Shown here in pieces: positions 21,597-42,575 of a DNA stretch of 64,000 nt. The stretch is from Burkholderiales bacterium Ga0077544 (lineage in GTDB: Bacteria; Pseudomonadota; Gammaproteobacteria; Burkholderiales; Burkholderiaceae_D), in the NCBI GenBank assembly GCA_001464355.1, contig LNEU01000022.1:62001-126000 (forward strand). The letters are read 5' to 3'. Each line of letters opens with the position of its first letter. Position 1 is the stretch's first letter. The notes beneath the pieces were generated by a model that worked only from the letters and a program-made list of their open reading frames with translations, had not been told where the DNA came from and ran no database searches. Both the position numbers and the translations under genes were made by a program.

Positions 21597-21639
21597 ATCT
21601 TATCGACGCGTCACCACCTTAGGCATTGACCGAGATCAA
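21597..21639 (-). promoter_or_regulatory. Crp/Fnr-type site and promoter of the orphan binding-protein gene
   Basis: TTGACCGAGATCAA at 21626-21639 is a half-palindromic Fnr-type site. A -10-like TAAGAT (minus strand, 21602-21597) lies exactly as far from it as the -10 hexamers of frc1 and oxc do from their sites, placing the site centre about 42.5 bp upstream of the predicted start. Confidence 0.6.
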
Positions 21640-21728
21640 TTTTCCACATGATCTTTAGTACATATGCGCATTGAACATGCAAAAACAATTACAAAATCCG
21701 TCTTCTACCCTTATTTTCGATCAAAAAA

Positions 21729-21745
21729 GAATCATTCTCATTTGA
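21729..21745. promoter_or_regulatory. Possible Fur-box-like sequence
   Basis: GAATCATTCTCATTTGA reads on the other strand as TCAAATGAGAATGATTC, close to the AATGAGAATNATT core of Fur boxes. It lies in the 433-bp gap between the binding-protein gene and frc1, about 200 bp from the nearest start codon, so its target is unclear. Confidence 0.35.
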
Positions 21746-21902
21746 GCCGGGCTAAATGCACGTTTGCAATCCTATCGCACATTCCTTGAGCGCATATTCT
21801 GCCCCATATTCCGATTCGGTTGAATTAAGCATATGCACTACCAAGAACAAGACGCTACTGTAACCCACTCTTTATGCGCTTCAAATCCATGGAACCAAAT
21901 AA

Positions 21903-21932
21903 AAAGCCCCCACCTTTTCAGGCAGGGGCTTT
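21903..21932 (-). terminator. Intrinsic terminator after frc1
   Basis: AGCCCC and GGGGCT arms, with partial inner pairing around a TTTTCA loop, lie 30 bp beyond the frc1 stop. On the minus strand the stem ends in GGGGGCTTTTTATT, a T-run. Confidence 0.8.
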
Positions 21933-21962
21933 GAAAAACACCGACAACAGATGCCGTTTCTT

Positions 21963-23213
21963 TTACGAAATGACGCCGTCTTTGCGCAAGTCAGCGATTT
22001 GTTCAGCACTATAACCAAGTTGACCCAGCACTTCTTCTGTATGCTCGCCAAGTAATGGCGAACGCGTCACATCGGTCGGGCTATCCGACAGTTTGATCGG
22101 GTTACCGACTGTCAGGTATTTGCCGCGTACCGGGTGATCAACTTCAACGATGGTTCCGGTTTCACGCAGCGATGGCTCTTCAGCGATTTCTTTCATCGAC
22201 AAGATAGGGCCGCAAGGAATATCGAACTTGTTGAGGATGTCCATTGCTTCGAACTTGGTCTTGGTCTTGGTCCACTCTTCTACCGTTGCGAAGATATTTT
22301 TCAAGTGCGGCAGACGCGATGCTGGTGTTGCGTACTCCGGATCTGTCAGCCACTCTTCTTTACCAATCACTTTACAGATAGGCGCCCAAACAGCGCCTTG
22401 AGTAATGAAGTAAATGTATGCGTTAGGATCTGTTTCCCAGCCTTTGCATTTCAGGATGGAGCCTGGCTGACCACCGCCTGATGCATTGCCTGCGCGTGGT
22501 ACGGAATCCCCAAATGGGGTATCCGGATATTGCGGATATTCCTTCATGACGCCGGTGCGTTCCAGACGTTGTTGATCGCGCAGCTTGACGCGACACAAAT
22601 TCAACACAGCATCTTGCATAGGGGCTAAAACTTTTTGGCCACGACCGCTGGAATGACGTTGCAACAATGCGGCGAGAATACCCAGAGCAAGATGCAAGCC
22701 GGTACCGCTGTCGCCGATTTGCGCGCCGGTTACCATTGGTGGGCCGTCGTCGAAACCAGTAGTCGATGCAGAACCGCCTGCGCATTGCGCAACATTTTCA
22801 TACACTTTGCAATGTTCGTACGGGCCAGGGCCAAAGCCTTTGACTGACGCGACGATCATTTTTGGATTGAGTTCGTTGATACGTTCCCAGGTAAAGCCCA
22901 TACGATCCAACGCGCCTGGTGCGAAGTTCTCTACTAGGACATCGCATTCCTTGATCAAGGTTTCGAGCACTTGCTTCCCTTTTGGGTTTTTGGTGTCGAG
23001 CGTGATCGAACGCTTGTTATGGTTGAGCATCGTGAAGTAGAGACTGTCTGCTTCAGGGATGTCACGCAATTGACCACGTGTAGCGTCGCCTTCGCCTGCA
23101 CGCTCCACCTTGATTACGTCTGCACCGAACCAAGCCAGCAGTTGGGTACATGTCGGGCCTGATTGCACGTGTGTGAAATCAAGAATGCGATAGCCGCTTA
23201 ATGCCTTACTCAT
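21963..23213 (-). CDS. frc: Formyl-CoA:oxalate CoA-transferase, paralogue 1 (class III CoA-transferase)
   Basis: A 416-residue class III CoA-transferase very similar to its neighbour at 23843-25102. It retains Q17 (THVQ), the catalytic aspartate D168 in IGDSGTGLH, and the tyrosine before ENVAQ. It differs in the mobile glycine loop: SGGGQ at 245-249 instead of GGGGQ, and PGS instead of PGW after it. The start is the ATG at 23213, with AGGAG upstream. It has its own promoter, a near copy of the oxc promoter, and a terminator at 21903. It probably moves CoA from formyl-CoA to oxalate; another donor such as succinyl- or acetyl-CoA is possible given the loop change. Confidence 0.88.
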
Positions 23214-23458
23214 CAACTACTCCTATCTTGTACAAAAAAGCGCGTGCAGACAAATGTCCGCGCGCGCCATGTTCAATTAATTGCGCATGGGTGAACCGTG
23301 GTATCTGGAGCATATGCACCTGGCAATTTCACCATGGATAACTATGCACTTATTCACCTGACCAGTACCAGATTGTTACGGTGTTCTTTACATCCTTGCA
23401 CTCGCAAGGCATCTAGAAAAATCAGGCTCAGAATTGCTATTAGCATCCCTGAAATATG

Positions 23459-40072: not shown

Positions 40073-40152
40073 AAGTAATCCTGTTTCGATGGTTCAAGTA
40101 GATACCCAAAACACGCAGGGCAACTTGTGGCTGCCCTGCGTGCATTCACTGC

Positions 40153-40368
40153 TCAGCCGCCGCCAATCGCGCGCACGATATCAACGGAATCAGCAGCCTG
40201 CAACTTTCGTTGTGACCAATGACTGCGCACTACGATTTCGCGATTGATGGCGACCGCGACTGCCTTGCCGGATAGCGACAAGTCAGCGATCAACTCTTCC
40301 ACGTTTTTATGCGGGTCGAGTTGATGCTTAACGCCATTGAGTTCGATCGTTATTTCAATATTGATCAT
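40153..40368 (-). CDS. thiS: Sulfur carrier protein ThiS
   Basis: A 71-residue ubiquitin-fold protein ending in the required Gly-Gly (VRAIGGG), the site that is adenylated and then converted to a thiocarboxylate for ThiG. The ATG at 40368 overlaps the thiC stop codon by one base, so translation is coupled. The N-terminal INIEITIELNG and the central AVAINREIVVRS are typical. Its neighbours thiC and thiG confirm the assignment. Confidence 0.93.
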   Translation of the reverse strand: MINIEITIELNGVKHQLDPHKNVEELIADLSLSGKAVAVAINREIVVRSHWSQRKLQAADSVDIVRAIGGG

Positions 40369-42281
40369 TACTGTTTTTGATAAATTTCTGAACCGCTTTT
40401 TACAAACTCAATTGATTTCACTTCCATCCCCTTTTTCAAAGCCTGGATTTCTGTAATGCCTTGTTGCGCTGCGTACTCGCGTACTTCTTGCGTGATTTTC
40501 ATCGAGCAGAAATGCGGGCCACACATCGAACAGAAGTGCGCGACTTTGGCGGAATCTTTCGGCAAAGTTTCATCGTGGAATTCACGTGCCTTGTCGGGAT
40601 CGAGACCGATGTTGAATTGATCGTCCCAACGGAATTCGAAGCGCGCTTTCGACAGTGCGTTGTCGCGTATCTGCGCACCGATATGACCTTTGGCCAAATC
40701 GGCAGCATGCGCCGCAATCTTGTACGTGATGATGCCGTCCTTGACGTCGACCTTGTTTGGCAAACCCAGATGTTCTTTCGGCGTAACGTAGCAAAGCATC
40801 GCGGTGCCGTACCAACCGATTTGCGCAGCACCAATGCCGGACGTGATGTGGTCGTAGCCAGGAGCGATGTCAGTCGTCAATGGTCCCAGCGTATAGAACG
40901 GCGCTTCGTGGCACTGCTCCAGTTGCAGATCCATGTTTTCCTTGATCAGATGCATAGGCACGTGACCCGGACCTTCGATCATCACTTGCACGTCATGCTT
41001 CCACGCGATCTGCGTCAATTCGCCCAATGTTTTCAATTCACCGAGTTGCGCTTCGTCGTTGGCATCGTAGATAGAGCCAGGACGCAAACCGTCGCCGAGG
41101 CTGAACGATACGTCGTAGGCTTTCATGATTTCGCAGATGTCTTCGAAGTGTTCATACAGAAAGGATTCCTTGTGATGCGCGAGACACCATTTCGCCATGA
41201 TCGAACCACCACGCGAGACGATACCGGTCAGGCGTTTTGCGGTCATCGGTACGTAACGCAGCAACACGCCGGCGTGGATCGTGAAGTAATCAACGCCCTG
41301 CTCTGCTTGCTCAATCAGCGTGTCGCGGAAGATTTCCCACGTCAGGTCTTCGGCCTTGCCATTGACCTTTTCCAGCGCCTGATAAATCGGTACGGTACCA
41401 ATCGGCACTGGCGAATTACGAATGATCCATTCACGCGTTTCATGTATGTGCTTACCGGTCGACAAATCCATCACGTTATCGCCACCCCAGCGTATTGCCC
41501 AGGTCATTTTCTCGACTTCTTCGCCTATCGACGATGTCACAGCCGAATTGCCGATGTTGGCGTTGATCTTGACCAGAAAATTACGGCCGATGATCATCGG
41601 CTCGATTTCTGGATGGTTGATATTGGCCGGAATAATGGCGCGGCCGCGCGCGATTTCACTGCGCACGAATTCGGCGGTGATCTCTTGCGGAATCGAGGCA
41701 CCAAACGATTGACCCGGATGTTGACGGCCCATCAGCTCGGCGAGTTTTTCGCCTTTCGGCCCGGATTGTTTCAACTCTTCCAGATATGCGCGGCGATTCA
41801 TGTTTTCGCGAATCGCAACGTATTCCATTTCAGGCGTGATAATGCCCTGACGTGCGTAATGCATCTGACTGACATTCTTGCCAGCGAGTGCGCGGCGCGG
41901 TTTGCGATGCAGGTTGAAGCGCAGTTCTGCCAATTGCGGATCGTTCAAGCGCTCGATACCGTATTCGGATGTTGGGCCGGCGAGCTCTTCCGTGTCCTTG
42001 CGCTCGAGTATCCACGGCATGCGTGGTGTATCTAGGCCGGAACGGATATCGATCTTGGCTTCAGGATCGGTGTAAGGACCGGACGTATCGTAGACATAGA
42101 TCGCCGGATTTTTTTCAAAGCCGAACGATGCGGCCGTATCGGATTGCGTGATCTTGCGCATAGGCACGCGTATATCAGGACGCGAACCCTGGATATAAAC
42201 TTTGCTGGAATTTGGTAATGGTTGAATCGCTGCTTCATCTACCGTGGCGGTAGCGGACAGGAATTTCGGGTTGGCATTCAT
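40368..42281 (-). CDS. thiC: Phosphomethylpyrimidine synthase
   Basis: A 637-residue radical-SAM enzyme that rearranges 5-aminoimidazole ribotide to HMP phosphate. The C-terminal cluster motif [11 protein letters not shown] (C-x2-C-x4-C) and blocks such as [18 protein letters not shown], then [15 protein letters not shown], are typical. The ATG at 42281, with AAGGAGCC upstream, is chosen over a frame extending to 42398 through the riboswitch. It is first in thiCSG. The product thiamine diphosphate is the cofactor of both Oxc and Gcl in this window, a functional link with the oxalate pathway. Confidence 0.96.
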
Positions 42282-42403
42282 TTTGGCTCCTTGGCTAACT
42301 ACTTGTGGCTTGGAGCCAGCTAAGGAGGTTTCGAGAACCTGTATTGTATTCAGCTTGGTATCGACGAAAACACAATTCGAATGCCGGATGCAATACACGT
42401 TCT

Positions 42404-42497
42404 CGGTAGCTTCCCTTCGCTGGCATTATCCAGATCAGGTTCAAGGGTTTTTCTCACCCGGCAAATGCGGAACGCATTTGCCTAGGACCCCTAGCTT
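42404..42497 (-). promoter_or_regulatory. TPP riboswitch (THI element) of thiC
   Basis: On the minus strand the RNA contains GGGTGAGAAA, then CCTTGAACCTGATCTGGATA and TGCCAGCGAAGGGAA, the conserved THI-box core. A hairpin (GCAAATGCGTTCCGCATTTGC with one extra base) is the variable P3-type arm. It lies 123 bp upstream of the thiC start and should lower thiCSG expression when thiamine diphosphate is plentiful. Confidence 0.95.
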
Positions 42498-42533
42498 TTT
42501 ACTTCTGTAACAGGTGAATCAAACTACAACGCG

Positions 42534-42575
42534 AGTCTATGCAATAAAACTGCATAGTCAATTGACCCGGGTCAA
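42534..42575 (-). promoter_or_regulatory. Crp/Fnr-type site and promoter of thiCSG
   Basis: TTGACCCGGGTCAA at 42562-42575 is a perfect palindrome. A -35 TTGACT (42561-42556) and -10 TAGACT (42539-42534) on the minus strand are 16 bp apart. The site centre lies at -41.5 relative to the predicted start near 42527, and the riboswitch begins about 30 nt later. Confidence 0.65.

Follow-up and report, generated by a model that had tools for sequence, protein, structure and literature searches.

What switches on the breakdown of oxalate in the Burkholderiales is a question raised by a 64,000-nucleotide stretch of DNA from Burkholderiales bacterium Ga0077544 (contig LNEU01000022.1, positions 62,001 to 126,000), which was analysed as a whole and is termed the window; its own numbering is used below. 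In the window the gene for oxalyl-CoA decarboxylase (oxc; 25359-27074, minus strand) is divergent from the gene for a 202-residue protein of the Crp/Fnr superfamily (27346-27954, plus strand), here termed the regulator. A preliminary description had proposed that palindromes of the form TTGAC-N4-GTCAA in front of six transcription units mark an oxalate regulon controlled by this protein. In the searchable literature no transcriptional regulator of the oxc/frc pathway was seen named for the order, although Oxalobacter has been studied for the prevention of kidney stones. The available portions of PMC5343134, PMC12927642, PMC9476978, PMC10192776, PMC4764995, PMC9812493, PMC7486775 and PMC5209427 name no regulator of oxc, and no paper joining Crp/Fnr proteins with oxalate was found in a coverage that leaves subscription journals mostly outside.

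The site, its spacing, its conservation, its co-occurrence with the regulator and the fold of the protein were computed. The regulon is real and conserved; from sequence comparison it very likely belongs to the neighbouring Crp/Fnr protein and, judged from promoter geometry, the protein is likely to activate it. It is highly probable that the 202-residue protein is a dedicated transcriptional activator of oxalate catabolism that binds TTGACC-NN-GGTCAA in the class II way. The proposal of a shared regulon thus stands for the palindrome, with the 27346-27954 protein as the likely regulator, and for thiC and sucC it stands within the genus only. A candidate regulator gene, an exact predicted operator and a promoter geometry are now in hand for oxalate breakdown.

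The palindrome and its place at the oxc promoter

All six sites of the preliminary description are present where it had placed them, as perfect TTGAC-N4-GTCAA palindromes at 23519, 27271, 31763 and 42562, as TTGACCGAGATCAA at 21626 and as TTGACCAAGGTTAA at 36414, and all six share the direction of the minus-strand genes. With at most one mismatch, TTGAC-N4-GTCAA occurs 13 times in the window against 2.5 expected, a number reached by none of 100 shuffles. The oxc gene (TIGR03254, 876.8 bits; cut-off 739.4) is preceded by the predicted activator site TTGACCGGGGTCAA (27271-27284, minus strand), which reads toward oxc and is followed, at an offset of 23 nucleotides (nt) from the palindrome, by the -10 hexamer TATGAT (27242-27247, minus strand), the centre of the site standing at -42.5. 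The same centre lies 68 base pairs (bp) upstream of the start codon of the divergent regulator.

Conservation of this arrangement was read in 80 loci, the best 80 of 531 stretches encoding relatives of the regulator in the named genome collection, which were chosen by the regulator protein alone and come from Herminiimonas, Oxalicibacterium, Collimonas, Polaromonas, Ramlibacter, Massilia, Curvibacter, Noviherbaspirillum and others. Judged by these relatives, the genome of the window is probably Herminiimonas-like. Seventy-nine of the 80 have the pattern TTGA[CT]-N4-[AG]TCAA in the 330 bp preceding the regulator gene; at the exception, L104, only 22 bp of contig precede it. The site nearest the regulator is exactly TTGACC-NN-GGTCAA in 66 of these 79 loci and departs from it by one mismatch in the other 13, and the refined consensus is TTGACC-NN-GGTCAA. 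C6 and G9 carry over 1.6 bits each in the oxalate sites, and flanks outside the search pattern are conserved as well, with GAAAA before the palindrome and TG and a TATGAT-like hexamer after it.

All 79 loci have, 22 or 23 nt past the palindrome, a hexamer matching TATAAT in at least four of six positions, A2 and T6 included, against 2.2 loci expected from shuffles; the direction is that which reads away from the regulator and, in most loci, toward oxc. When offsets from 10 to 35 were compared without tie-breaking, 22/23 nt held the best hexamer alone in 75 loci, was tied in four and was bettered elsewhere in none. The spacing is that predicted for a class II activator, the site standing where the -35 box would, and on this point the class II geometry of the preliminary description is borne out. 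Strict sites precede all 60 oxc genes in the 80 loci. The site stays before oxc where that gene lies downstream of the regulator and not divergent from it (L066, L067, L069, L075, L077 and L079), and L072 and L078 have a second site, before oxc. Downstream of oxc in the window lies frc2, a formyl-CoA transferase gene (23843-25102, minus strand; TIGR03253, 723.5 bits, cut-off 504.2), which mostly lacks its own site (a strict one precedes 4 of 51 frc2 genes).

The genome (3,248,153 bases in 34 contigs) was searched with the same pattern read backwards as a control. Perfect TTGAC-N4-GTCAA palindromes number nine against six for the control, a slight over-representation, and the notion that the bare motif is meaningful genome-wide by itself was rejected on this count. 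Four of the nine fall in one 21-kb stretch (Poisson 4.5e-7; ~1.4e-4 allowing any such stretch), while the remaining five are spread over coding sequence (three) and the regions before a universal-stress gene and tpiA (one each). These last two sites (L003:1501-1514 and L008:1501-1514) are possibly FNR targets. The longer form TTGACC-NN-GGTCAA has five matches in the genome against none for the control. The signal is carried by the inner C and G, the place and the -10 hexamer rather than by the bare motif.

The regulator and its association with oxc

The regulator comprises an N-terminal cyclic-nucleotide-type domain and a C-terminal helix-turn-helix with the sequence SPETLSRL, right behind whose recognition helix the chain stops. 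PF00027 matches the N-terminal domain with 30.1 bits, above its cut-off of 27.5, as expected of a β-roll of the type that binds cyclic nucleoside monophosphates (cNMP). PF13545, the helix-turn-helix family, gave no match to the regulator in hmmscan at E 0.001, nor at the locus in a PF13545 search of its own genome. A Crp-type helix-turn-helix is seen in the structural model, which aligned over nearly its full length, and in the orthologue profile, which aligned to the helix-turn-helix of FNR and brought the ETLSR of the regulator onto the FNR recognition helix. The AlphaFold2 model, whose alignment combined 62 orthologues with three further Crp/Fnr proteins from the same genome, has a predicted local distance difference test (pLDDT) score of 95.8, and in Foldseek it matched GlxR, Mycobacterium tuberculosis CRP and FNR at a template modelling (TM) score of about 0.8. 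An earlier model from 24 alignment rows (pLDDT 67.7) was poor, and it was set aside together with its PDB search.

Glu-191, Thr-192, Ser-194 and Arg-195, the E-T-x-S-R of an ExxSR recognition helix, are invariant in 78 of 78 orthologues. No invariant cysteine occurs among these 78, and the cysteines that hold the [4Fe-4S] cluster in FNR are absent. Lys-68, Arg-69, Arg-82, Tyr-93 and Trp-96 (K68, R69, R82, Y93 and W96) are likewise invariant among the orthologues and may form an anion-binding pocket. The genome encodes two cysteine-bearing FNRs, with ESISR/ESVSR helices, and one more Crp/Fnr protein above the helix-turn-helix cut-off.

Orthologues with 52-100% identity were found in 76 of 399 genomes of the order and, with at least 58% identity, in 59 of 195 genomes of the family, where other matches reach at most 31%, apart from two fragments of only 43 and 24 residues, both from orthologue-bearing genomes. 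A plasmid search returned 76 records, every one below 60% identity and at most 32.9% among the 20 matches listed. One genome, G504, has three divergent copies of the regulator (L295, L296 and L297; 52-58% identity), and no oxalate gene was seen in the L296 and L297 stretches.

Among the 399 order genomes, oxc is present in 75, the regulator in 76 and both in 67, and the pairing recurs within the order in bacteria from soil, water and gut, the Oxalobacter type included. Sixty-four of the 67 could be tested, two being cut by contig ends and one, the window itself, being left out. In 61 of the 64 genomes with the regulator, and in none of eight without it, the 700 bp upstream of oxc contain a strict site (Fisher 1.4e-8), compared with 0.1% of shuffled upstream regions; genomes of both kinds occur in the family groups f31 and f46. 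Recurrence of the motif before orthologous oxc genes, a prediction of the preliminary description, is thereby upheld. That description had also held that a motif at chance frequency would speak against the regulon. In the genome the bare palindrome is indeed near its control, whereas upstream of oxc it is far above chance, and chance palindromes were rejected on the window shuffles, the frequency upstream of oxc and the fixed -10 spacing.

In the family, 47 genomes have regulator and oxc, 12 the regulator only, four oxc only and 132 neither (Fisher 5e-29). Matches to TTGACC-NN-GGTCAA average 2.25 per family genome where the regulator is present (at least one in 53 of 59) and 0.74 where it is absent, while the reversed control averages 0.20 and 0.46, respectively.

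The genus g7 resembles Oxalobacter: over the first 71 residues available, the Oxc of its genome G073 is identical to PDB 2c31, which is the Oxc of Oxalobacter formigenes. In every one of the 11 g7 genomes that have oxc, the gene is preceded by one or more sites with 0-1 mismatch, and the regulator is present in seven of the 11. In G049 and G073 four sites precede oxc in exact 24-bp steps (L191:1308-1393 and L193:1308-1393), which look as if four dimers could sit side by side, and this suggests that an array of four activator sites drives the oxc promoter of O. formigenes. In g7 oxc and the regulator are not neighbours; a CoA-transferase gene or a piece of one adjoins the regulator in six of the seven flanks read, the exception being G093. 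In Oxalobacter-type and g41 genomes the regulator gene is itself preceded by two palindromes about 40 bp apart (L194:1656-1708, L206:11902-11955 and L195:890-943), a pairing that suggests autoregulation.

Further probable targets and genomes without oxc

Beyond oxc, the target found most widely is tctCBA (28357-31603, minus strand), a tripartite tricarboxylate-type transporter (TctC, PF03401, 97 bits; TctA, PF01970, 502.3 bits; TctB, PF07331, 65 bits), which from its context is a candidate oxalate uptake system. Its site TTGACGCCGGTCAA (31763-31776, minus strand) is centred at -41.5 from the conserved -10 position, 31735-31740. Of 51 tctC genes, which come from 50 loci (two of them from L158), 45 have a strict site in the 450 bp before them, the six misses being L087-L092. 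The preliminary description had given -10 distances for all six sites; those of -42.5 for the frc1, oxc and binding-protein sites and -41.5 for sucC and thiC stand, while the hexamer that it placed at -44.5 for tctC is the best in this one sequence and was replaced by that at about -41.5, whose position is conserved in related loci. In the 80 loci no strict site precedes the panE-like gene (0 of 35), fah (0 of 34), sucD (0 of 12) or tctB (0 of 52).

The gene frc1 (21963-23213, minus strand) encodes a further formyl-CoA transferase (TIGR03253, 726 bits; cut-off 504.2), and its site, again TTGACCGGGGTCAA (23519-23532, minus strand), has the -10 hexamer TATGAT at 23490-23495 and a centre at -42.5. 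The expectation that the motif would recur before orthologous frc1 genes holds for 12 of 53 and fails for the rest: a strict site within 450 bp was found in L081, L082 and L086-L089, from Herminiimonas/Oxalicibacterium, and elsewhere in L098, L100, L119, L141, L150 and L160, the site in L150 and L160 being the same one that is shared with the regulator. An orphan periplasmic binding protein (Peripla_BP_6; 20384-21532, minus strand; PF13458, 182 bits) is preceded by TTGATCTCGGTCAA (21626-21639, minus strand) with TAAGAT at 21597-21602 and the centre at -42.5; three of the six loci that have this gene show a strict site before it.

The genes sucC and sucD (34193-36237, minus strand), of the succinate-CoA-ligase type and followed by fah and a panE-like gene (32211-34005), have the site TTAACCTTGGTCAA (36414-36427, minus strand), the hexamer CACAAT at 36386-36391 and a centre at -41.5. 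No strict match precedes sucC in any of ten loci; TTAACC-NN-GGTCAA with a -10 at the fixed distance is present in eight of the ten related loci, all of Herminiimonas/Oxalicibacterium, and absent from the other two. The thiC gene, for phosphomethylpyrimidine synthase, occupies the open frame 40368-42398 (minus strand; NF006763, 1075.8 bits), and since the match begins at residue 59 the true start is probably further in than that of the frame. Its site TTGACCCGGGTCAA (42562-42575, minus strand), with TAGACT at 42534-42539 and a centre at -41.5, differs from TTGACC-NN-GGTCAA by 0-1 mismatch in ten of 13 genus genomes and by two mismatches, at the same place, in the other three. Between the thiC promoter and the gene, downstream of the site, lies a thiamine pyrophosphate (TPP) riboswitch (42395-42502, minus strand; RF00059, 60.8 bits, gathering score 54.3), and dual control of thiC, by transcription and by riboswitch on one leader, is therefore probable. 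The idea that sucC, thiC and the binding protein belong to the regulon everywhere was rejected, as these targets are lineage-limited.

The regulator was also found without oxc, as defined by TIGR03254, in nine order and twelve family genomes, G028 being in both. Neighbourhoods were read in 11 of these 20 (G028, G229, G241, G273, G284, G323, G476, G580, G100, G153 and G024). In eight, that is in all except G476, G580 and G024, a TPP enzyme with 22-25% identity to Oxc is divergent from the regulator, with a palindrome between the two and formyl-CoA-transferase genes after it (L298:5103-6869 in G028, L288:2581-4281 in G229, L289-L292, L302 and L303). Oxalate/formate antiporters are near in several, and TIGR04259 was above its cut-off in both that were scanned. 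Two of the TPP enzymes were scanned and fell below the cut-off of each among the 25 NCBIfam models listed of 50 matched; for the one that was searched, the closest relatives of known structure are 2-hydroxyacyl-CoA lyases and proteins labelled oxalyl-CoA decarboxylase. The enzyme looks like a candidate non-orthologous replacement of Oxc, and these neighbourhoods support an oxalate role of the regulator, which could serve as a search handle for oxalate genes missed by annotation.

Proposed mechanism, rival explanations and related systems

We infer that the protein binds the site, that binding activates transcription and that the signal is oxalate or an intermediate of the pathway. A Crp/Fnr-type dimer would bind TTGACC-NN-GGTCAA through its ETLSR recognition helix and, standing at -41.5/-42.5 in the place of the -35 box, would recruit RNA polymerase in the class II way. 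The core target throughout the order would be oxc with the frc genes behind it, next the tctCBA transporter and, in some lineages, frc1, to which Herminiimonas/Oxalicibacterium would add sucCD, thiC and partly the orphan binding protein. Activation of thiC would supply thiamine for the TPP-dependent Oxc, braked by the TPP riboswitch, and one switch could coordinate uptake, CoA transfer, decarboxylation and cofactor supply. More tentatively, and with less than even confidence, the subfamily may be a metabolite-sensing master activator across the Burkholderiales, O. formigenes included, whose β-roll binds oxalate or a ligand of the oxalyl/formyl-CoA type through the invariant residues named above and which, in genomes lacking oxc, marks a second TPP enzyme that replaces Oxc.

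The preliminary description had itself allowed for ownership of the sites by another Fnr protein, in which case one of the two cysteine-bearing FNRs, and not the neighbouring regulator, would switch oxc and the other genes by oxygen. The ESISR/ESVSR helices of these proteins read the same core, FNR sites also function at -41.5, TTGAT-N4-ATCAA accounts for 24 of the 50 TTGAY-N4-RTCAA occurrences listed (the genome has 51), and a TTGACC-NN-GGTCAA site stands before a universal-stress gene near another such gene with a TTGAT-type site. The site nevertheless tracks the regulator, being present before oxc in 61 of 64 genomes with the regulator vs none of eight without it, and FNR-type proteins are usual in the order (they were not searched for in the eight regulator-less genomes). 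C6 and G9, kept in the oxalate sites, are found in only 3 of the 24 TTGAT-type sites, 79 of 80 loci have a site upstream of the regulator, and in three Oxalobacter-type genomes the site persists although no FNR-like protein was detected. FNR as sole owner was judged unlikely, the shared ExxSR helix leaving it a small probability. Shared control is possible, if doubtful, with the dedicated regulator as principal activator of the oxalate genes and FNR overlapping it at some sites to adjust the response to oxygen: the recognition residues are the same and a perfect palindrome also precedes the universal-stress gene. Least probable is a repressor that blocks oxc when oxalate is absent; with the site centre 68 bp before its own start codon the regulator may at least repress itself, yet the centre is fixed at -41.5/-42.5 from the -10 in 79 of 79 loci, the position of a class II activator.

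A dedicated activator of oxalate catabolism is the reading that we prefer, and several observations weigh against it. Two perfect palindromes of the genome stand before genes without an evident oxalate link, the universal-stress gene and tpiA, and the two true FNRs of the genome have the same ExxSR helix and could bind the same core. A strict oxc site is missing from three of the 64 regulator genomes, of which two have a form with two mismatches and G245 has none, and from the family genome G121 (one mismatch), while the motif still turns up one or more times somewhere in 57 of the 136 regulator-free family genomes. The weightiest contrary result is that four Oxalobacter-type genomes (G006, G124, G137 and G158, 87-99% complete; L201-L204) keep the oxc site with no regulator detected, profile search included, and the Fisher value is 3.7e-6 once they count as contrary. 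No cNMP-domain protein was detected in G124, G137 and G158, G006 has one FNR-like protein with ETVSR, and no trace of the missing regulator was found at the Oxalobacter frc loci; assembly gaps, recent loss or an unrelated protein that reads the site may account for these genomes. The oxc tree has only seven independent regulator changes, which the site follows in 4.3 on average, with the opposite in 0 and no difference in 2.7 (sign test p 0.125). This tree has 66 rows (not every oxc found), was made by a quick method and includes four long end branches (G434, G124, Azoarcus and G418), and the site state of G110, G041, G006 and G124 was taken from a separate reading of the loci, those of the tree being short. 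The association of site and regulator is thus strong, but rests on few independent events.

The regulator can be compared with several known groups of the superfamily. The short Bacteroidota-type Crp/Fnr protein of Cytophaga hutchinsonii (PDB code 3dn7; 194 residues) is the best PDB match of the orthologue profile (E 8.9e-14), although identity is ~16% over the Foldseek-aligned part. The cyclic adenosine monophosphate (cAMP) receptor proteins CRP and GlxR share the overall fold, with TM scores of 0.7-0.8 for most best matches, while the regulator has ExxSR in place of the CRP helix. In the stretch of the cAMP phosphate cassette it has a conserved ETSYAAW...TPxPYS, which, read by position against CRP, appears to have other residues than Glu and Arg-Ser. 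DNR of Pseudomonas aeruginosa, a Crp/Fnr regulator with an FNR-like site that controls denitrification and binds haem, was also matched (PDB code 3dkw; E 1.6e-7), whereas no denitrification genes are among the targets found here. FNR recognises a TTGAC/T-N4-R/GTCAA core and takes the class II position -41.5; it shares the ExxSR helix with the regulator, and Aliivibrio fischeri FNR is the best PDB profile match when the alignment includes the two FNRs of this genome. In contrast to FNR, the regulator has no N-terminal cysteines, the inner bases of its site are CC..GG, and its regulon is oxalate metabolism.

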